Source: Deroplatys truncata (taxonomy: Eukaryota; Arthropoda; Insecta; Mantodea; Mantidae). Taken from it: a stretch of 64,000 nt of DNA. Position 1 is the stretch's first letter, and each line of letters starts with the position of its first letter. Shown one piece after another: positions 11,128 through 49,303 of the stretch. The position numbers were made by a program, and so were the translations under genes. The stretch covers positions 54,774,421 to 54,838,420 of the forward strand of contig CM060978.1 of assembly GCA_030765065.1 (NCBI GenBank). Reading direction: 5' to 3'. A model generated the notes under the pieces. It was not told the DNA's origin, did no database searches, and saw only the letters and a list, made by a program, of their open reading frames with translations.

Positions 11128-12136
11128 CACTAGTTGGAAAGGCTATACGAAGCTGTAGTTGAGTCAAAAATGTTATATAGAATAGAAATATGGGGGGTGG
11201 CAAAGAGATGGATTAAGATTGATATAGTCCATAGAATGTTTTGTAGAGAAGTTTTGAGTTTACCTAAGAGTTCACCAAGGGGCGTGGCACTGGCAGAGCT
11301 AGGAATGGGAGGGAGAAAAGGTATAATAGTGGAAAGAATTTAGAAGTATTGGCATAGATGTTTAAATTTAGAAGATAGTAATATATTAAAAGAATGTATA
11401 CAGTTTCAAAAAACTGTCTTAGGAGAAGAGTGTTGGTTTGGGGAGATGGGCAATGTGCTAAAAGAAATTGGCATGAGGAATATTTACCTATTAGATAAAT
11501 ATAATAACTGTGGGTTTTGGAAAGAAGTGAGATTGAGGGTAGAAGACATTGAGAAACAAGAGATATGGGCTAGTTTTGAGGATAAAAGGTCATTGATCTT
11601 GTATAAATCAGCTAAAAGAAATTGGGGAAGGGAGAAGTATGTAGATATATGCAATCAATTTTGTAGAATGGATCTTGCGTGGATGAGCACAGGAGTAATA
11701 TTTTTAAAAAGGAATGGATATAATTGTTCGGGGAGATGTATTATGTGTGATGAATTGGGTAGTACTTTTCATTGGCTAATAGAATGTGATAAGGTGAAAA
11801 GGTGGAGAGAGGTTATATGGAATAAAAATTGGGACAAGCTAAATAAAGAAGCAGTAGCATTAAGAATGTTGGGAAGCACAAAAGTAGAAACAATTAAAAT
11901 GATGGGGACCTTTTTAGGCATCACAAGGGATAAGTGGATAAGGAGCTTAAGAACGGTACAGCAGAATGGGCACAGTTTGGAAAGTGGAGAGATGGTATAG
12001 TAGCTTTATCCCATATATACAGCCTAGGGGCTAAATATGGGAGAGCTAGAAAACTGGAGCACTAGACCTAAGTTTTAGATGTAAGTTTTATTTGTATTAT
12101 TGTAATAATGATGAAATAAATATTACATTACATTCT
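11128..12136 (+). mobile_element. 5'-truncated LINE 3' end (family B, copy 2)
   Basis: A LINE ORF2 C-terminus plus 3' UTR. The frame is continuous from 11134 to 12000 except for a single in-frame TAG at 11341-11343. It opens with the post-RT segment MLYRIEIWGVAKRW, continues through FWKEVRLRVEDIEKQEIW, and has a zinc knuckle of pattern C-x2-C-x7-H-x4-C around CIMCDELGSTFHWLIEC. The 3' UTR ends in ATTACA units. It is homologous to the end of the LINE at 26.9-30.6 kb but belongs to another subfamily. Copy 1 at 1698-2486 is about 95 % identical by eye. Confidence 0.8.
11134..12000 (+). pseudogene. LINE ORF2 C-terminal region with one internal stop
   Basis: The encoded region covers the C-terminal end of ORF2 after the reverse transcriptase domain, including the CCHC-type knuckle thought to bind nucleic acid during target-primed reverse transcription. 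289 codons include one TAG at 11341. Endonuclease and RT are absent because of 5' truncation, so it has no autonomous activity. Confidence 0.75.
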
Positions 12137-13060
12137 TAGCAATGAGTGTATCACTTGGAGGGGTATAATTTTATTGGGAAACAAGGATCAAGGAAGAATA
12201 TTAAAGGTCAAGTTTCTGGAGGTATAGGGGTACTGATAAGGAATAACCTGACTAGTAAAGCTAAGGAGAGAAAGTCAGAAATTAACGGGGCCATGTGGGT
12301 GTTGATATGTGAATGGAGTGTATGCATTGGTGTACTGTATAACCCGAATTCAAAGTTCCACAACCCAGATCACTTTCGTCAGCTAGAAAAGGAAATATTA
12401 AATATATAAGCAGAACTTCCCTTTATAGAATTTATACTAATGGGGGATTTAAATGTGAGAGTTGGAGATTAAGGCATTAAATGTTTGGGAAGACATGAGA
12501 GGAAGGAATTTAGCAAAATATGGACTAGGCATAGCAAAGAGAAGTTGGTAATTCAGTGTTGTCAGAATAAAGATTTATAATGGTGAATGGTTGCTGGGGG
12601 GGAGATGAAATGGGTGAATTTACATTTATAAGTGTGTGGGGTCAGACTGTTGTAGATTGTGTGTTATGTAGTGATATATTATGCAGAGTTTGTGAATTTA
12701 ACGTAATGAACATATTTTTCACTTATAGTGCCTTGTTATAGCTTAATGAGGGGAAAGGTTTACCCTGAAATGTGTCCTATATATGGGGAGAGGGAAGATG
12801 AAGTTCCATTATCTTTCAATGTAAAGCCACTAATGACTGGAGGGTAAACCTAATAAGTAAGAAATGGTTACTGAGAATCAAAGAAATTGCATTATAAAGA
12901 TTTTTGAAGACCAGAAGCAGATTCCCAAACTAGGGGAGTTTTTATGGAAAGTGAAAACAAAATGCAAATCGTCAGTTGAAAAACATGCAAATTTACATTC
13001 ATCTTTGGTTGACAAAGGATATCTATGTAATATGTTAACTTTTGTATTTGTATATTGAAA
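12137..13060 (+). mobile_element. LINE fragment: endonuclease fused to C-terminus, RT deleted (family C)
   Basis: It begins exactly where the previous LINE tail ends. 12146-12409 reads as the apurinic-type (EEP) endonuclease, with GGIGVLIRNNL and, after a stop, LMGDLNVRVGD. GEFTF and VVDCVLCSD follow near 12620. From about 12770 it jumps to a C-terminal knuckle (CPIYGEREDE) and KLGEFLWKVKTKCKSS. The whole reverse transcriptase is missing between these parts. Several stops and frameshifts show age. The 3' end, near 13060-13130, is unclear. Confidence 0.7.
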
Positions 13061-26216: not shown

Positions 26217-26969
26217 ATGTTTTGCAACTTTGACCAGAAGTATCATAATATATGTTTCATAATAAATGTAGACAATTTAAACCCGTAAATTTTTAGAGAA
26301 TTTTCATGAATTTCTCATTTTCTCACAAAAGTCTTTATTTACACAATAAACACAAAAATTGATATATTTTAAAAATTAGTTACATTTACATGTTGGCAAT
26401 ATAAAGGTAATCAAAGCAATCAATTTTCTTTTTGAGCCTCAAAATTAATTGCAAAACCTGATAATCTCGATTTGGTAGTGTAAGCAACTACCTGAATTTC
26501 AGAGTGAAAGTAATAGGCATGTACTTTTATGTTATATTGAATTTTGTAACTATGTCCGAATGTACCGCATGCTTTGTTGACATTAAAGCTAAAGGTTACC
26601 AATTTCATAGGTTTGGCGAGATATCTGTTCCAGCCTTATGACCACCAATAAATGCAGACAGTGAAAGATTCTTTTTTGCACTATAATTTAATAGTTACTT
26701 ACGAGATTTTCAGTGCCCTGAAAACAATGTAATCTCTTGTATGTTGCCATTTGGTGTCATGGAATAAACAGTGTGGCTAAATAATATTTAATTTAATATT
26801 TCCTACCAAACATTAATATCCTTTCAAAAATAACTTGTATATGTGTTTATACCTTGTATAAACTACTGGTGGTATTAATAATTCAATGGAGTGCTAAGCA
26901 AGCAGTGGAAGAGAGTGGACGTGTTAGGAAGAAGCTCCTGGAGTGGATGAAAGAGGGGCTTAAGTAACC

Positions 26970-27578
26970 ATGGGAATTGGCACTGAGGTGTATAGAGCAA
27001 GAATTGGAACATTTAACAAGTTAAAGTGGAAGGATTCTAAAACAAACAAAGGTGTAGAAGAGATGGCAAACATGTTTCTTCTCACATGTATAATAGGTAT
27101 ACTATTGATAATTGGTGGAGTTGAAATCAACCCTGGGCCAAATGGGGATCAAAACGTCATGGAACAAACGTTGGCATACATTAAAGATATGGATGAGAGA
27201 TTAGGAATTAAACTCAATGGGATGGAAAAGGAACTAATAGATATCAAGGGAGAGATCAAAAATGAAATGCAAGATATACGAAATGAGATACAGAAAGTTA
27301 AAAGTAGAGTTGAGCTGCTGGAAGAGAGACACCGCAGATTTAATCTGGTTATAGCAGGAGTGAAAGAAAGGAACGGAGTATGGCCTGTAGATGAGGTCAG
27401 AGAGATTATAGAAGGAAAGCTTGGTTTGAAGTTACAGGACTGGGAGATTAGAGAAGCATTTAGAGTGGGGAGATCAAGAGGAGCCAGAATGATAGTTGCA
27501 AGATTTACGTCAGTGCAGTTTGTGTATGAAGTATTGAAGAAATCAAAGTTACTAAAAGGAACAAATATCTTTATATAA
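26970..27578 (+). CDS. LINE N-terminal ORF with 2A-like peptide and coiled coil
   Basis: 202 residues. Residues 34-48 are strongly hydrophobic (MFLLTCIIGILLIIG from M35), followed immediately by GGVEINPGP at 49-57, a 2A-type ribosome-skipping motif (canonical D-V/I-E-x-N-P-G-P, here with G for D). Residues 65-125 are a charged coiled coil (DIKGEIKNEMQDIRNEIQKV). The C-terminal part (RRFNLVIAGVKE ... VREIIEGKLGL ... AFRVGR) resembles the RNA-binding ORF1 domain of LINEs. In-frame ATGs at 27063 and 27072 would give a short hydrophobic leader ending at the 2A, so the real start may be one of them. If 2A works, the leader is released and the RNA-binding part starts at proline 57. Confidence 0.75.
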   Translation: MGIGTEVYRARIGTFNKLKWKDSKTNKGVEEMANMFLLTCIIGILLIIGGVEINPGPNGDQNVMEQTLAYIKDMDERLGIKLNGMEKELIDIKGEIKNEMQDIRNEIQKVKSRVELLEERHRRFNLVIAGVKERNGVWPVDEVREIIEGKLGLKLQDWEIREAFRVGRSRGARMIVARFTSVQFVYEVLKKSKLLKGTNIFI

Positions 27579-27609
27579 GTCAAGTGATGGTTTTATCGAA
27601 TTTTGTGAA

Positions 27610-27897
27610 GTGAACGCTTTAGACATATTGAACGGTAAATATGGAGATGATTTGGAGGGAGAGTTTACTTTTGTTAATATGAATGGGCAAAGTGTCATTG
27701 ATTATATATTATGGCCGATTAGCAAGGCATATACAATAGAAAACTTTAAGGTACTAAACTTTGTATCTAATAGCTCCCACTTCCCGCTGGTAGTGGAGAT
27801 TCAAAGGCGATCAGAGGAAGTACGGGAATTCAGACGGGAATGGGGAAAGATACTAAGCAATATATTGAATTTAAATGGAGGGAGGAACAGAGGATAG
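27610..27897 (+). pseudogene. LINE endonuclease C-terminal remnant
   Basis: DILNGKYGDDLEGEFTFVNM, GQSVIDYIL and NSSHFPLVVEI are the last conserved blocks of the EEP endonuclease, the final one carrying the catalytic SxH. The N-terminal two thirds, with the N, E and Y/D catalytic blocks, are deleted. Its frame differs from both neighbours. Confidence 0.8.
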
Positions 27898-27934
27898 AAT
27901 TTAAACGAACATTAGATTCCAAGCATGGTCAAAT

Positions 27935-29725
27935 ATGTCAACAGGAATGATTTTTATGATAAAGAACCAGGAAATAGAGAATGTAAACAATATTTTTAAT
28001 ATGTTAATGCAAAGAGCAGGGGAAGGGATGAGAAGGGGGAGAGGCAGGGTAATAAAGGAAATAGGGTGGTATGATGAGGAATGCAAAATAACAAAAAAGG
28101 TGGTGAAACAGGCATTAGTACGATGGAAAAAGAGAGGGTATGAGGAAGATAAGAAGGAATACCTAAAGAGTAGGAATTTATATAATGCGCTATTAGAAGA
28201 AAAGAAACAAGAATGGAGAAATAAAGAACAAAGTAATTTGATTAAAGTATTAAGGGAAAACAATGCCAGTAAGGTGTGGAGAGTGTTAAAATCCACGTAT
28301 AATAAATGGTTAGTTAAACCAAATATCACTTCAGCAGATTGGATGGAGTATTTTAAAATGTTATTCGAGGAGGAGGGCTTTATCAAGATGAAGCCAGTGG
28401 CGGATTTTGGAGTGGGATACATAGATATATTAGATAGTGAAGTAAGAGATGAGGAGGTAGTGAAACAAGTGAAGGTAATGAAAAATAATAAGGCAACAGG
28501 TATTGATGGAATTCCTACCGAGTTTATCAAAGAATGGTGTAGCGATGAGACTAGAGTAAAGATGTTTACTGATTTGTTTAATGTAATAAAAACCAAGGGG
28601 TATATACCGAAGCATTGGAGGAAAGCAATAATTCATCCTATATATAAAGGTAAGGGGAGTGTTGATAAGCCCAATAATTACAGGGGAATAGCATTACTTT
28701 CAAATGTTGGAAAGATTTTCACAGGGATTTTAGCTAATAGGATACAAAACTGGGTAGAGGAATATAATATCCTCTCGGAGTTTCAAATGGGTTTCCGTAA
28801 GAGGAGGAGATCGGTAGATAACTTATTCATAATTAAAACTCTGGTGGATAAGTATTTAAAAGAAAAAAGGGGAAAATTATACATGGCATTTGTCGATTTG
28901 GAGAAAGCGTATGACCGCATTGATTTAAATTTGTTGTGGCACAAACTTTTGAGGAAGGGAGTAAGCCAACAGATAGTAAATTTATTTAAAGCTCTATACA
29001 AGGACAACACTTTCTGTGTGAAAGTAGGAGTAGGATTGGTGACAAAAGAAGTAAATCAAAGGAAGGGGCTACGACAAGGATGTAAATTAAGTCCAGTGTT
29101 ATTTAATCTGTACATTGATGATATCCTCACTGAGATAGGAAGGAATAATACTTGGTTGCCTACGATAAATAAGGTATCAATCCCTGGGTTATTATTCGCT
29201 GATGATTTAGTGATAGGATCAGTTTCAACGATTGGTCTGAAGCAGTCCCTACAGCAAATGAATAAATACTGCGATGAGTGGAATTTGAAAGTAAATCAAG
29301 AGAAGACTCAAATTATAGTGTTTAAGAAAGGTGCCAAACTGAGCAAGTATGAAAAGTGGAAGAATGGAGAGAAGGAATATAAAGTGGTCAGAGACTGTAT
29401 ATATTTAGGGGTTAAAATGGATGGGGGTGGAAAATGGGAGAAACAGAAGAAACTGGTATTGACAAAGGGGAAAGGGGCAATGGCAGCGATTAGAGGGTGC
29501 AAATATAGAATACCAGATATAAATGTTAAATGGCTAGAGAAAATATATAACACAGTAGTTGAAGCAAAAATGTTATATGGTAGTGAAATATGGGGAGTAG
29601 AACGAGGCTGGGAAGAGATAGATATGGTACATAGGAGTTTCTGCAGAGAAGTTTTAGGCCTGCTAAATGCTACAGTTAAGGAATTTGCTCTAATTGAAAT
29701 GCAGAGAGTGGGGGGAAAGGGGTAA
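27935..29725 (+). CDS. LINE reverse transcriptase (ORF2 core)
   Basis: 596-residue open frame. RT blocks seen in order are TGIDGIPTEFIK, NYRGIALLSNVGKIF, GFRKRRRSVDNLF, FVDLEKAYDRI (catalytic D), RQGCKLSPVLFNLYIDDI and LLFADDLVIGS (catalytic FADD at 29195-29206), then thumb-like segments to MLYGSEIWGV. Role: copies LINE RNA into DNA at a nicked target. The N-terminal linker starts out of frame with the endonuclease. It ends at TAA 29723-29725, where a frameshift in a G-rich stretch separates it from the C-terminal region. Loss of the endonuclease makes this copy non-autonomous even with RT open. Confidence 0.85.
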   Translation: MSTGMIFMIKNQEIENVNNIFNMLMQRAGEGMRRGRGRVIKEIGWYDEECKITKKVVKQALVRWKKRGYEEDKKEYLKSRNLYNALLEEKKQEWRNKEQSNLIKVLRENNASKVWRVLKSTYNKWLVKPNITSADWMEYFKMLFEEEGFIKMKPVADFGVGYIDILDSEVRDEEVVKQVKVMKNNKATGIDGIPTEFIKEWCSDETRVKMFTDLFNVIKTKGYIPKHWRKAIIHPIYKGKGSVDKPNNYRGIALLSNVGKIFTGILANRIQNWVEEYNILSEFQMGFRKRRRSVDNLFIIKTLVDKYLKEKRGKLYMAFVDLEKAYDRIDLNLLWHKLLRKGVSQQIVNLFKALYKDNTFCVKVGVGLVTKEVNQRKGLRQGCKLSPVLFNLYIDDILTEIGRNNTWLPTINKVSIPGLLFADDLVIGSVSTIGLKQSLQQMNKYCDEWNLKVNQEKTQIIVFKKGAKLSKYEKWKNGEKEYKVVRDCIYLGVKMDGGGKWEKQKKLVLTKGKGAMAAIRGCKYRIPDINVKWLEKIYNTVVEAKMLYGSEIWGVERGWEEIDMVHRSFCREVLGLLNATVKEFALIEMQRVGGKG

Positions 29726-29727
29726 TA

Positions 29728-30357
29728 ATGGAGAGAGCTCTTAAATATTGGCACAGACTATTAAATTTAGAAGAGAAGAACTTGTTGAGGCAGTGTTTGG
29801 AATTCCAAGAAAGGAGCTTAAAGAAGAATGGGTGGAGTTATAGTATACAAACTAATTTGGAAAATAGTGGTCTAGGGGAAATCTGGAGAAGGAGGGAAAA
29901 TAATGTTAAGGGTTTTTGGAAAGAAGCTAGGCAGAGGTTTGAAGATATAGAGATACAAAATTTATTTAGCAACATTGGGAACAAAAGTTCCTTGGAATCA
30001 TATATATTAATAAAAAATGTATGGGCTAGAGAACAGTACGTGGATAACTCAAATAAGGAACAAAGAGAAAGTATTGCCTGGGCACGAGCAGGTGTATGGA
30101 GATTAATAGGAATGAGAAATGGGTTCCCACAGAATCAATGCCCAATATGTGGGGAAAGAGAAGATTTAGAACATATCGTTTTTGACTGTAAAGGTACACA
30201 GCATTGGAGAAAGGTAGCCATAAATGGAAAATGGTTAAAACGGGACAGGAAAGTAGCTTTAAGCAAGATTTTTAACAAGGATAGTAAAAAGGTAGGAGAA
30301 TACTTGTCCAAAGTTAAAAAGAAATGGTTATGGACAATAAAAAGAGATGTAAATTAA
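29728..30357 (+). CDS. LINE ORF2 C-terminal region with CCHC knuckle
   Basis: 209 residues, in the +1 frame relative to the RT ORF. Both frames read GGKG just before the junction, so a small indel in the G-run at 29711-29722 explains the split. It contains CPICGEREDLEHIVFDC (C-x2-C-x7-H-x4-C) and ends VGEYLSKVKKKWLWTIK. Homologous to 11446-12000, to the end of 12137-13060 and to 47210-47800. Confidence 0.8.
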   Translation: MERALKYWHRLLNLEEKNLLRQCLEFQERSLKKNGWSYSIQTNLENSGLGEIWRRRENNVKGFWKEARQRFEDIEIQNLFSNIGNKSSLESYILIKNVWAREQYVDNSNKEQRESIAWARAGVWRLIGMRNGFPQNQCPICGEREDLEHIVFDCKGTQHWRKVAINGKWLKRDRKVALSKIFNKDSKKVGEYLSKVKKKWLWTIKRDVN

Positions 30358-30383
30358 TTTCATCAAGTGATGTTATGTAATTA

Positions 30384-30384
<1 letters not shown>

Positions 30385-30415
<31 letters not shown>

Positions 30416-30418
30416 GTA

Positions 30419-30450
<32 letters not shown>
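30385..30450. repeat. (ATT)n microsatellite in LINE 3' UTR
   Basis: ATT run with one TAG interruption, inside the 3' UTR of the family A LINE. Confidence 0.9.
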
Positions 30451-30452
<2 letters not shown>

Positions 30453-30907
30453 TATTACTATAAGATTATTATTTTCGTATCATTACTATTATTTTTACAA
30501 CTATTTGTATTATTATCATCATTTTTTATGTTATAATAAGAGTGTAATATGGGTAGAATATGGCAAGATAACAGCTTGGGCTGATGTATAGCCATATTCT
30601 AAGGAAGATTGCTAGCACAAATAAATAAATAAATAAAAATAATTCAATTTTAAGGATAATACAGTATTTTTCTACTATGTAAAATAACTTAAATCTTTTT
30701 TCTCCAAATGAATTTCAAAGTCAGTTTTTATATGCATATAATTTGTTTTTATTTTTGTCGCAAACTTATTGCACAATTTTGTTGTATTATTAACACAAAA
30801 CTGCAAAACTTTAAACATTAAATGTGAACTCTTTAAAAAATTATCACAATAAAACCCACCCCTACTTATCAGGGTAACTCAATAGATGAAAGAAGCAATT
30901 GTACCTA

Positions 30908-31039: not shown

Positions 31040-31777
31040 GGCACAAGTTTTTCAATACCCCCTCTGTAAAAGTCTGCCGCCTGTGACTTCAACCACTGGT
31101 TTACAGCGGCATGCAGCTGAGCACCAGTACAAAGCATCAATTTGATGCACCAAACTCTGTGAAATTTTGGGAAAATGTTCCGAAAGTTCTGTAATCGTGA
31201 AAACAACGATTTTCACAAATTTTGTCATTGATTTGCATTGACAGTTCATCAGTCATAAGGCTAGGCCTACCACTGCGATCCTCGTCGTGAACATTGGTAC
31301 GGCCATTTTTAAAATCAATGCACCATTGGAAAGGTAGAATCAAGCGATTGAAAAATTTCAATGCCATAGCCGGGATTTGAACCACGGATCTCCCGGTCTG
31401 AATTTTCCAGTCGCTTGATTCTACCTTTCCAATCCTGTCCAACACACGGCTTGTGTGGAAGAACAATTAATTCCAATGCACCATTGCCTGACTCGGCTTT
31501 CACTCATTATTCCCTGCCCGTAAACATCACAAAGTTGACGATAAATTTCAATTGGTTTGTTCTTTTTAGACAACCGCACTTCACTATTGGCGGGATTTTC
31601 TATTGCAGTGCACATTTTAACAACTCACAGAGAGTACAGTAAGGAAGGCACAGTCCTCAAGCTACCACAGCTGGATGCATACTGAATGTAGGAACGTTCT
31701 GACACCAAGATGGCGGCTCTAGCCCTACTCATCGCCACAATAGCCCAAAACATCTGGGACTTTCTGGACTGCCCTCG
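31040..31777 (-). mobile_element. Mariner transposon remnant carrying a SINE
   Basis: The 5' terminal repeat (CGAGGGCAGTCCAGAAAGTC on the minus strand) lies at the right with TA outside. The transposase N-terminus reads MCTAIENPANSEVRLSKKN, EIYRQLCDVYGQGIMSESRV and TNVHDEDRSGRPSLMTDEL. It then jumps by deletion to the C-terminal QWLKSQAADFYRGGIEKLVP. The catalytic middle and the 3' terminal repeat are missing. A SINE is inserted at 31329-31473. It joins C3 on the left. Confidence 0.8.
31329..31473. mobile_element. SINE (family S) with inverted 5' part and 13-bp target duplication
   Basis: Flanked by CAATGCACCATTG at 31316-31328 and 31474-31486, a perfect 13-bp duplication of mariner sequence. 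The right part is the SINE 3' body in plus orientation (GATTCTACCTTTCCAATC ... GTGTGGAAGAACAATTAATT). The left part is the body and B box in minus orientation (GGGATTTGAACC). The two parts overlap, so about 33 bp form an inverted repeat. This is the pattern left by twin priming during target-primed reverse transcription. Confidence 0.8.
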
Positions 31778-31935: not shown

Positions 31936-32519
31936 CAGGATGCCCATAAAGTCCCAATACATTTTCTTGTTCCTAGTCTGCTACACCACCATAAACATAT
32001 TAGAAAACAGAGTAGGACTTTATAAAGTCTAATACAGTTCAACATGTCCAGCTTCATTATCAACACAAGACAATCTACCTGAACATGCTGAAGTTGTTCC
32101 TGGAGCCACAGTTATGGCAGGATTGTATTCTTGCCTCTGTCATTTATCAACAAGATGGGGCACCACTCCACTATGCAAATATTGTACAGACTATCTGAAT
32201 GAGACCTTTCCTAACCATGGATCGGAAGAGTGGCATATCGCCTGCTCCCCCTACTTCATTCCCCCTGACTTTTAGCATGGGGTTTCATGAAGAGCTAGGT
32301 TTACGCTACCACGGTGCAAGATGTATGAGCTGAAACAAAGAATAAGAGCGGCATGCCTGCAATAAACCCTCAAATCTTACAGCATGTGTTCCATAAAAAC
32401 CACAAGATGATGTGAAGAGTGTGCTGATAATGAAGGTAGACATGTTGAACTGCATTAGACCTTATAAGGTCCTACTCATCATTTATTGGTTGTATCAGAC
32501 AAGGAATATGTGCACCCTG
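31936..32519 (+). mobile_element. TA-flanked Tc1/mariner-superfamily transposon remnant
   Basis: CAGGATGCCCATAAAGTCC at the left and the inverse of TGCACCCTG at the right, each next to TA. 32080-32290 reads LNMLKLFLEPQLWQD, VIYQQDGAPLHYANIV and PAPPTSFPLTFSMGF, the remains of QQDGAPPH and PRSPDLTPLDFFMWG blocks (last two catalytic D). LKQRIRAACLQ and CADNEGRHVEL follow. The N-terminal half is deleted and frames shift. Confidence 0.65.
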
Positions 32520-42739: not shown

Positions 42740-43329
42740 AAAACTACAAAAAGAGAGAAGAGTTTTCAATTTGGGTAGTTTCACTGTCAAAATCAGATGG
42801 TAAAACAGGTTCTTGAACTACATTATGGATTGGTTATAGTTTTTGACAGTCAAGGGTCCACATAACTAAGTCTTTCCAAACAAAAATATCAGTATTGGAA
42901 ACAGAACGTGTTACCTGCAAATCAAGACACTCGCAGGTAACTAGTTTGCAACTAGTTTGCTGCAGAGTGGCTTCTGCATTGCTTTCTTCCTCTTCTGAGT
43001 CAGACAACTTGAAATATCATCAAAGAATTCATTGAAAATTGACATTATTTCACCGTCTGTCAGTATTCATTTTGATGCCATCTTCATATATCATGCAAAA
43101 AACTCTAAAAAGTTAAAACTACTTACACATTCATGTGTGCATCATAAACTTGTGGCTGGGAATCCCCCTTGAAACAAATTTTAACAGGCTACAAATGCTG
43201 TCCTTACACACTGTTTACATCTGATGGTGCAAAGCATTAGATCCAGCCACAAACGCTCAGATGGTAACTAACATTACCTCATCTCTGAATGCTTGTAGTT
43301 ATGAACACATTCCGACCACAAAGGGTTAA
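42740..43329 (-). mobile_element. piggyBac-like 5' end and N-terminal remnant
   Basis: On the minus strand TTAA (43326-43329) is followed by CCCTTTGTGGTCGGAATG, a piggyBac-type terminus. About 240 bases in comes MASK, a stop, then LTDGEIMSIFNEFFDDISS, an acidic N-terminus with the layout of piggyBac transposases. VWKDLVMWTLD and PIHNVVQEPVLPSDF follow in another frame. The catalytic part and the other terminus are absent. Confidence 0.45.
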
Positions 43330-43464
43330 AAAAAAGCTTCCTACAGCTATTTCAATCTTCATAACCTTTCTTCTAAGTCAGCAACTTGTTGCACACCTTA
43401 TCCCAAGCATCTTAAGCTTCCATGGGGCCTGGATTAATTTCCATACCACCTATTATTAATAGCA

Positions 43465-43545
43465 CAACTTCACAACACTGAATTTTCAAATCTGATTCAA
43501 CTTTCCAACTCAGTGGTTACACATGGCTAGTGTGGAAGAACAATT
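43465..43545 (+). mobile_element. SINE (family S) 3' part, interrupted by an LTR
   Basis: CACTGAATTTTCAAATCTGA, TTCAACTTTCC and GCTAGTGTGGAAGAACAATT match the SINE body and tail. The solo LTR begins directly after the tail sequence and duplicates AATT of it. Confidence 0.6.
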
Positions 43546-47204: not shown

Positions 47205-47980
47205 ACCTTGAAACAATGTCTAAATTTAGAGGAGAACGAGACTGGTGTCACACTTGGATTAATAGGATTAAAGAGGTCATAGAAAAAATTGGCTATGGGG
47301 CGACTTCACAACCCAGAGAACAAAGAGAGATTTCTGGAAAGAAGTTAAACAAAGTATCTAATATATTGAAATTCAGGAAATATATTTCAGTAGGTACACA
47401 ATAAAAAGTCATCAAGGATCTGCAGAGAACTAAAGAAAGAATAGGGTAGGGAAAACTATGTAGGTAAAAGTGACAGATGGGCAAGGAAGGGAGCTACATC
47501 GGCTAGAACAGGTGGAGTGAAATTGAATACGAGGGAGCAGAATTTAGAGGAATGCCCAATGAGTGGAATGAAAGATAATTATTGGCAAACAATTCTTGAA
47601 TGTGAAGAAACCAAAATAATGAGAGAAATACTGAGGCTTGAGAAATAGACCAATCTTTCAGAGGGGAAAAAGTTGCTAAACTTAAATCAAGGAAGGACAT
47701 TATCGAGTTTGGGGAATATTTAGGTAAAGTAAAGAGCAAATGCATGAGAAAAATTAAGAAACATGGGGAATCAGAACTTTTAGAAAATAATTAAATATGG
47801 AAAGAGACTGAGTTTATCTTCATGTGTAAAGTGGTCCTGGTAGCAACTCACAAGCACGAGGCAAGAAGTAGTAGCATGTTTCTTTTGTATTACTAAGATT
47901 ATAAGAGAGTATTACAAAAGTGAGATGTACTATACACAGTGCAATGACAATAAATTCAGTCATTCATTCATGATTTGCCA
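47205..47980 (+). mobile_element. LINE 3' end, heavily degraded
   Basis: It aligns block by block with the C-terminal region of LINE families A and B: QCLNLEE (47213), FWKEVKQS, EIQEIYFSRYTIKSHQ, SDRWARKGATSARTGGV, CPMSG ... TILECEETKIMRE (knuckle) and EFGEYLGKVKSKCMRKIKK. Frames shift several times. The 3' end has ATTC units (TCATTCATTCATG) near 47960, a tandem-repeat tail. Confidence 0.65.
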
Positions 47981-48068: not shown

Positions 48069-49303
48069 CACTATGTGATCAAAAGTATCCGGACAGCCCA
48101 CAAACATACATTTTTCATCTTTGGTGCATTGTGCTGCCACCTACTGCCTGGTACTCATTATCCGCAACCTCAGTAGTCATTAGACATCGTGAAACCGTAG
48201 AATGGGACACTTCGTGGAACTCACGGACTTTGAACGTGGTCAGGTGATTGGGTGTCACTTGTGTCAGAAGTCTGTACGCGTAATTCCCACACTCCTAAAC
48301 ATCCCTAGGTCCACTGTTTCTGATGTGATAGTGAAGTGGAAACATGAAGGGCATGTACAGCACAAAAGCGTACAGGCCGACCTCGTCTGTTGACAGAGAC
48401 CGCAGACATTTGAAGAGGGTCGTAAAGAGTAATAGGCAGACATCTATCCAGATCATCACACAGGGATTCCAAACTGCATCAGGATCCACTCCAAGTACTA
48501 TGACAGTTAGGCGCGAGGTGAGAAACCTTGGATTCCATGGTCGAGCGGCTTCTCATAAGCCACACATCATGCAGGAAAATGCCAAACGACGCCTCGCTTG
48601 GTGTAAGGACTGTCAACATTACACGATTGAACAGTTGCAAAACGTTGTGTGGAGTGACGAATCACGGTACACAATGTGGCGATCCGATGGCAGGGTGTGT
48701 GTATGGCGAATGCCTGGTGAAGGTCATCTGCCAGCATGTGTAGTGCCAACAGTGAAATTCGGAGGTGGTGGTGTTATGGTATGGTCGTGTTTTTCCTGGA
48801 GGGAGCTTGCACCCCTTGTTTTGCGTGGCACGATCACAGTGCAGACCTACATTGATATTTTAAGCACCTTCTTGCTTCCCGCTGTTGAAGAGCAATTCTG
48901 GGATGGCTATTGCATCTTTCAACACGATCGAGCACCTGTTCATGCTGCATGGGCTGTGGCGGAGTGATTACACGACGATAACATCCCTGTAATGGACTGG
49001 CCTGCACAGAGTCCTGATTTGAATCTTATAGAACACCTTTGCGATGTTTTGGAACGCCGACTTCGTGCCAGGCCTCACCGACCTACATCGATACCTCTCC
49101 TCAGTTCCGCACTCCATGAAGAATGGGCTGCCATTCCCCAAGAAACCTTCCAGCACCTGACTGAAAGTATACTTGCGAGAGTGAACGCTGCCATCAAGGC
49201 TAAGGGCCAATACCATATTGACTTCCAGCATTACCGATGGAAGGCGCCACGAACTTGTACGTCATTTTCAGCCAGGTGTCCGGATACTTTTGATCACGTA
49301 GTG
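48069..49303 (+). mobile_element. Tc1-like transposon, nearly complete
   Basis: Terminal inverted repeats of about 27 bp (CACTATGTGATCAAAAGTAT / CACTACGTGATCAAAAGTAT) and TA on both sides. 1235 bp, full length for the group. The transposase covers nearly the whole interior with one frameshift and one premature stop. It is among the youngest DNA transposons here. Confidence 0.92.
48202..49270 (+). pseudogene. Tc1-like transposase (DD34E), one frameshift and one stop
   Basis: It starts MGHFVELTDFERGQVIGCHL. The N-terminal paired helix-turn-helix continues to IPRSTVSDVIVKWKHEGHV, with a frameshift near 48365 before the second frame (from 48344). Catalytic residues are VVWSDESRYTMW (first D), IFQHDRAPVHAA (second D) and SPDLNLIEHLCDVLE (E), with 34 residues between second D and E. 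A TGA at 48965-48967 interrupts the region between second D and E; WPAQSPDLN resumes beyond it. FGGGGVMVW is the usual Tc1 block. It would have cut and pasted the element at TA sites. Confidence 0.9.

Follow-up and report, generated by a model that had tools for sequence, protein, structure and literature searches.

LINE Copy 1 and Its Architecture

The window, by which we mean the whole 64-kb stretch of DNA analyzed, carries on its plus strand a LINE that will be called copy 1, with the following features.

26877-26887, no strand: 5' target-site duplication AATAATTCAAT, an 11-bp exact match to 30638-30648
26888-30637, plus strand: LINE copy 1, from the 5' junction to the AATA-rich tail, bounded by the duplication, with RVT_1 in the RT ORF
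26970-27578, plus strand: ORF1 of copy 1, 202 aa, the C-terminus of which is cut by an internal deletion
27072-27116, plus strand: hydrophobic leader MFLLTCIIGILLIIG, ORF1 residues 35-49, from the sequence and its hydropathy
27117-27140, plus strand: StopGo/2A-like core octapeptide GVEINPGP, by the core definition of PMC12846837
27144-27329, plus strand: coiled-coil-like helix of ORF1 (AlphaFold helix 28-89 of a 171-aa model)
27339-27575, plus strand: RRM-like domain (beta-alpha-beta-beta-alpha-beta), from the AlphaFold model and Foldseek (2yko, E 0.0093)
27574-27894, plus strand: probable C-terminal remnant of an otherwise missing AP-like endonuclease domain, lying in a different frame
27935-29725, plus strand: reverse transcriptase ORF (Pfam RVT_1, E 3.6e-37; L1 and R2 RT chains in the PDB)
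29728-30357, plus strand: Cys/His-patterned C-terminal domain, beyond a frame break that follows the RT
30638-30648, no strand: 3' target-site duplication AATAATTCAAT, an exact match to the 5' one

Besides the RVT_1 reverse transcriptase, copy 1 has two further LINE features, a target-site duplication and an AATA-rich 3' tail. Shuffling the flanks gave duplications at least as good as the 11-bp one in 3 of 2000 cases, and random pairs of places in the window did so in 5 of 2000; the first bases of the duplication could be part of the tail.

The remnant at 27574-27894 resembles a relic at 12580-12666 (E 1e-5). A Pfam search at E<=5 gave no match for this remnant, so that its naming as an AP-like endonuclease is based on motifs seen by eye and on that relative. 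In the relic at 12.2-12.5 kb, Exo_endo_phos_2 was obtained at E 0.11, below the cut-off. The fact that ORF1 runs into what looks like the C-terminal part of the endonuclease, in another frame, indicates that most of the endonuclease is missing. The C-terminal domain gave zf-RVT at E 0.012 and 16.7 bits, as against a curated cut-off of 27.5, and has relatives at 11329-11952 and 1700-2131. Copy 1, probably an APE-type element, is dead: its endonuclease is largely missing and its frames are broken, so that it could not be active by itself. The RT of copy 1 had no match in viral_contigs, none of the eight stretches of genome_contigs fitting a pattern was a relative, and ORF1 had no match among phage records; since these collections are viral or prokaryotic, this lack of relatives says little.

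The Predicted Fold of ORF1

The translation of ORF1 from the ATG at 26970 opens with MGIGTEVYRARIGTFNKLKWKDSKTNKGVEEMANMFLLTCIIGILLIIGGVEINPGP.... An in-frame TAA stop codon is located at 26961, 9 bases 5' of this ATG, which has a strong context (aaccATGG), and the later ATGs at 27063 and 27072 are possible alternative starts.

Both AlphaFold models of ORF1 are single-sequence models of moderate confidence (mean pLDDT 69.6 and 70.8). In the 171-aa model, the block-wise pLDDT along the helix is 78-95 for residues 31-80 and 68 for residues 81-90. Human LINE-1 ORF1p (2yko), which likewise consists of a long helix followed by an RRM-like fold, was the top Foldseek hit for each model (E 0.019 and 0.0093); neither model had a Foldseek match under E 0.001, and no Transposase_22 was found in ORF1 with Pfam at E<=5. 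The predicted models show the order typical of a type II (L1-like) ORF1, namely a coiled coil and then an RRM. ORF1 proteins of this type, composed of a coiled coil, an RRM and a C-terminal domain, are described in the L1, CR1, L2, and R1 clades (PMC4120745). Unlike human LINE-1 ORF1p, the ORF1 of copy 1 stops inside the RRM-like fold or directly behind it and has no C-terminal domain there, this domain having likely been lost with the internal deletion.

The Hydrophobic Leader and the Core Motif

Residues 35-57 of ORF1 read MFLLTCIIGILLIIGGVEINPGP in the window translation. As the sequence-only reading had reported, GGVEINPGP occupies residues 49-57 (bases 27114-27140) after a hydrophobic stretch; the leader MFLLTCIIGILLIIG and GGVEINPGP share one G, at residue 49. 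The Kyte-Doolittle hydropathy peaks at 2.83 over residues 37-51 (15-residue windows, in steps of three residues). The octapeptide GVEINPGP conforms to the core (D/G/C/N)(V/I)ExNPGP as defined by Li et al. 2026 (PMC12846837). The predicted skip site lies between G56 (codon 27135-27137) and P57 (27138-27140), and the length of 56 residues given here for the N-terminal peptide presupposes the use of the first ATG, at 26970. The sequence-only reading, in which a LINE ORF starts with a 2A-like motif, is supported in this respect; the ORF is ORF1, and a predicted coiled coil and RRM-like fold come after the core.

In the six frames of the window, [DGCN][VI]ExNPGP has one match, and no match at all was present in any of 400 dinucleotide shuffles. 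For ExNPGP there are two occurrences, as compared with a shuffle mean of 0.005, and none of the 400 shuffles reached two; bare NPGP is likewise present twice, a count reached in 11 of 400. The canonical D[VI]ExNPGP is absent from the six-frame translations of the 64-kb window. Both NPGP sites of the window are preceded by LLIIGG, a full match to which has a probability of 7e-8 by composition.

Core matches in DNA viral contigs (36 of the form GVExNPGP and two of the Ile form, amounting to 29 distinct upstream stretches) served as a contrast set; the Gly-x-Val form had a single match in these contigs, on a contig already among the 36. Over the 8 residues immediately preceding the core, the mean hydropathy of the viral contrasts does not exceed 2.05; the corresponding values are 3.1 for copy 1 and 2.64 for the second site of the window (copy 2, described below). 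Over 16 residues, the values are at most 1.82 in the viral contrasts, 2.49 in copy 1, and 1.42 in copy 2, so that copy 2 is not above all the viral contrasts over this length. In one viral contrast, L022, five consecutive hydrophobic residues occur among these 8, a run equal in length to that of copy 1, but the stretch ends in TSK.

A Second Copy at 43.4 kb

The second site lies on the minus strand and was absent from the sequence-only reading.

43424-43483, minus strand: second leader and core, IQCCEVVLLIIGGMEINPGP, from the pattern search, translation and tblastn
43311-43329, minus strand: TTAA and a piggyBac-like terminal sequence, 94 bases past the core of copy 2, where the relic appears to be interrupted

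The peptide LLIIGGMEINPGP is encoded at 43462-43424 (minus strand). Copy 2 was also found without any pattern by tblastn with ORF1 when composition statistics were off (13/20 residues, E 7e-4); with default statistics and E<=1e-3 it was not among the matches. From LLIIGG to NPGP, 12 of the 13 residues are identical in copies 1 and 2, whereas 10 of the 39 bases differ, nine of these differences being at third codon positions. When 10 random changes were made, at most one residue change resulted in 4 of 200,000 trials starting from copy 1 and in 1 of 200,000 starting from copy 2. The codons of the core of copy 2 are partly selected, because the search pattern ignored third positions in the core. 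The leader codons are free of this bias, since the pattern began at p13: the six of them show three differences, all synonymous, as do 416 of 22,032 possible triples (0.019).

The maintenance of 12 of 13 residues in spite of 10 differences in 39 bases suggests that the Gly is the family state and that the peptide is constrained. We read the two copies as descendants of LINEs of one lineage in which the peptide would have been kept during codon turnover; for the family as a whole, this conservation rests on two copies. A peptide kept while its codons turn over is evidence, from DNA alone, of selection on the peptide. GxExNPGP is retained at both window sites having the leader, and the count is 2 of the 2 sites reaching this region because none of the other LINE relics of the window shows an ORF1 start.

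The sequence-only reading had hesitated between a family variant and decay in this copy as the origin of the G at the first core position (p12). The former is favored by copy 2, which is divergent and has the same G with another Gly codon (GGA in one copy, GGT in the other). NPGP is kept in copy 2, the sole other window site reaching the ORF1 start, and across the 13 codons of the two copies four are identical, eight differ synonymously, and one shows a replacement (V to M at p13). This Met places copy 2 outside the core definition, and it is not a flagged variant. That the motif might be due to chance, or to the decay of a D-type core in copy 1, would fit with the fact that copy 1 is dead and that Gly and Asp codons can differ by one base; it is nevertheless very improbable in view of the shuffles, none of which yielded the core, and of the two different codons for the shared Gly.

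Another possibility is that the 43.4-kb fragment might be a different element, or an integrated piece of an RNA virus, resembling copy 1 through shared 2A constraints. The DNA outside the leader-core block speaks for it, since the similarity of the two copies there is no better than that of shuffles (72 of 200 as good upstream and 52 of 200 downstream). LLIIGG and the Ile at p15 are common to both copies, however, and are not demanded by the published 2A rules, and a coiled-coil-like stretch, QQVADLEERL, noticed by eye only, is present downstream of the core of copy 2 in another frame. We therefore regard a separate origin of this fragment as unlikely.

A piggyBac-like end (TTAA CCC...) at 43329-42700 (minus strand) seemingly interrupts copy 2, the TTAA-plus-CCC terminus being presumably of this type. 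No matching other end was found in the window when up to 3 mismatches were allowed.

Comparison With Published StopGo/2A Rules

StopGo sequences are described as frequent among RNA viruses, whereas cellular genes rarely contain them (PMC12846837). According to the viral survey of the same authors, Gly is as prevalent as Asp at p12, and they suggest that Gly at this position likely requires compensating upstream contacts (PMC12846837). Their motifs 2 and 6 are L-rich, with (A/S/C)G before p12, and favor Asp at p12; motif 5 ends with (A/G/S)G at p12 and favors Gly at p12 and Pro at p15; the motifs assayed are given as 1, 3, 4, and 6, and motif 5 is outside these four (PMC12846837). The core of copy 1 is preceded by ILLIIG. 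Its Gly-Gly at p11-p12 and its VExNPGP are as in motif 5, which is viral and favors Pro where copy 1 has Ile at p15, and its Leu/Ile-rich tract is as in motifs 2 and 6, which favor Asp where copy 1 has Gly. Since the Gly-Gly is motif 5-like, the Leu/Ile tract is like that of motifs 2 and 6, and p15 is Ile, which in both copies is outside the favored residues, the sequence does not fit any one motif cleanly; this comparison was made by eye against the text descriptions of the motifs in PMC12846837.

Viral sequences often have Gly at p12, and those of them that were tested were active (PMC12846837, PMC6249498). The 2A1 of DHAV-1, a GxExNPGP sequence which shares the Gly of copy 1 and is located in a virus polyprotein, is active in skipping (PMC6249498). 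In FMDV, skipping was reportedly lost when the D was mutated (cited in PMC6249498). DLESNPGP, engineered in a virus context from the viral DLESNPPP, was inactive in an older survey (PMC2885027), which shows that a match or near-match to the core does not ensure activity.

Proposed Mechanism

The segment of copy 1 is probably a StopGo/2A element splitting a 56-residue N-terminal peptide from a LINE-family ORF1p. As copy 1 itself is dead, the proposal applies to the LINE family, and it is for the family that we infer skipping, the fate of the products and the purpose of the process. During the decoding of GVEINPG, the nascent Leu/Ile tract and the core in the exit tunnel would block the formation of the Gly-Pro bond; the 56-residue N-terminal peptide would be released and translation would restart at Pro57. 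The RNA-binding ORF1 protein (coiled coil and RRM) would then begin with proline and be devoid of the leader, and a minority of the chains might remain unskipped and retain it.

The ribosome exit tunnel holds 30-40 residues. The tract is still inside it when NPG|P is decoded and should therefore be first of all the upstream context of the 2A; it is more economically read as chiefly this context, and secondarily as a possible signal sequence. For the same reason, a signal role could show only in the unskipped product. In artificial polyproteins, 2A can be inhibited when certain proteins are translocated (PMC2978324), which suggests that the signal and skip roles of the leader may interfere.

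The leader might alternatively serve ORF1p as a signal at its N-terminus or as a membrane anchor, NPGP being a mere turn or a tolerated sequence and no skipping taking place. The hydrophobic stretch is indeed strong, and a single-sequence model shows a helix at the leader with low to moderate confidence. ExNPGP would be superfluous in a membrane anchor, however, and it was kept in both copies through synonymous turnover. Moreover, 34 residues separate the ATG at 26970 from the tract, which is long for a classical signal peptide; the use of the ATGs at 27063 or 27072 would shorten this distance. We consider it quite unlikely that the leader has this function alone.

A leader with two functions, in the style of the sea urchin NLRs, is a version of the skipping explanation and compatible with it: the skipped product would be a cytoplasmic ORF1p, and the unskipped one would enter the secretory pathway or membranes. 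An NLR sequence of S. purpuratus has the same layout, an N-terminal hydrophobic leader followed by the core (PMC4981915). ORF1p works with RNA, however, and membrane delivery would be of no evident use to it; with the start at 26970, moreover, the tract lies some way in from the N-terminal end. Such a dual role is possible but rather improbable.

Known Systems and Significance

2A-like elements are already known in non-LTR retrotransposons, and the family of copy 1 adds another. A 2A-like sequence was reportedly found by Heras in 2006 in the L1Tc of Trypanosoma cruzi, and 2A-like sequences are said to have been found by Odon in 2013 in APE-type non-LTR elements of multicellular organisms. These elements, known here through citing passages, resemble copy 1 in having the 2A-like core in an ORF of the element and differ from it by its Gly at p12. 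Among the literature matches listed, no title concerned 2A in this LINE or in any insect LINE, which is no proof of absence.

The 2A of the sea urchin NLRs (Roulston 2016, PMC4981915) is, like that of copy 1, near the N-terminus and directly preceded by a hydrophobic tract. It is an element of 26 residues belonging to host immune genes, whereas that of copy 1 belongs to a retrotransposon ORF1p and comprises up to 56 residues. This N-terminal 2A skips at about 80 percent, a skip-dead fusion goes mainly to the Golgi, and several mutations of the hydrophobic tract near the core reduce skipping (PMC4981915). By analogy, it may be speculated that this LINE lineage uses a Leu/Ile-rich, Gly-type StopGo (p12 = G, p15 = I) as an N-terminal switch between a free, proline-initiated cytosolic ORF1p and a less abundant form that keeps the leader and is targeted to membranes. 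It would then correspond, in a retrotransposon, to the leaders of the sea urchin NLRs; we consider this extension unlikely.

As a natural sequence, the locus allows a Gly-type core to be tested behind a Leu/Ile-rich tract; this pairing is not reported as assayed in the parts of PMC12846837 considered here. The sequence also makes it possible to test for what purpose LINEs would remove a leader from ORF1p.

Other Relics and Elements in the Window

Three further clear LINE relics, each with at least one match at E<=2.4e-5, are present at 1700-2298, 11134-11952, and 12580-12921, all on the plus strand. Those at 1700-2298 and 11134-11952 are 5'-truncated, have closely similar C-terminal ORFs and are related to, and distinct from, the 26.9-kb element. 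The segment 12160-12992 (plus strand) is an internally deleted LINE relic in which pieces of the endonuclease almost directly abut the C-terminal domain, with no RT; of these pieces, one was recognized by a match at E 1e-5 and the remainder by eye. A weak LINE relic at 47326-47761 (plus strand; E 0.023 and 0.22) may be a decayed C-terminal fragment.

Some fragments of DNA transposon type were also noticed. A fragment of a Tc1-like transposase ORF, identified by eye in translation, is located at 48344-48967 (plus strand), and a mariner-like coding fragment, also recognized by eye, at 31137-31466 (minus strand). The latter contains a 33-bp inverted repeat (31325-31357 / 31401-31433, 94%), as from a fold-back rearrangement. 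A 58-bp inverted repeat at 32010-32067 / 32420-32477, 90% complementary and with its arms 352 bases apart, may be a small DNA transposon.
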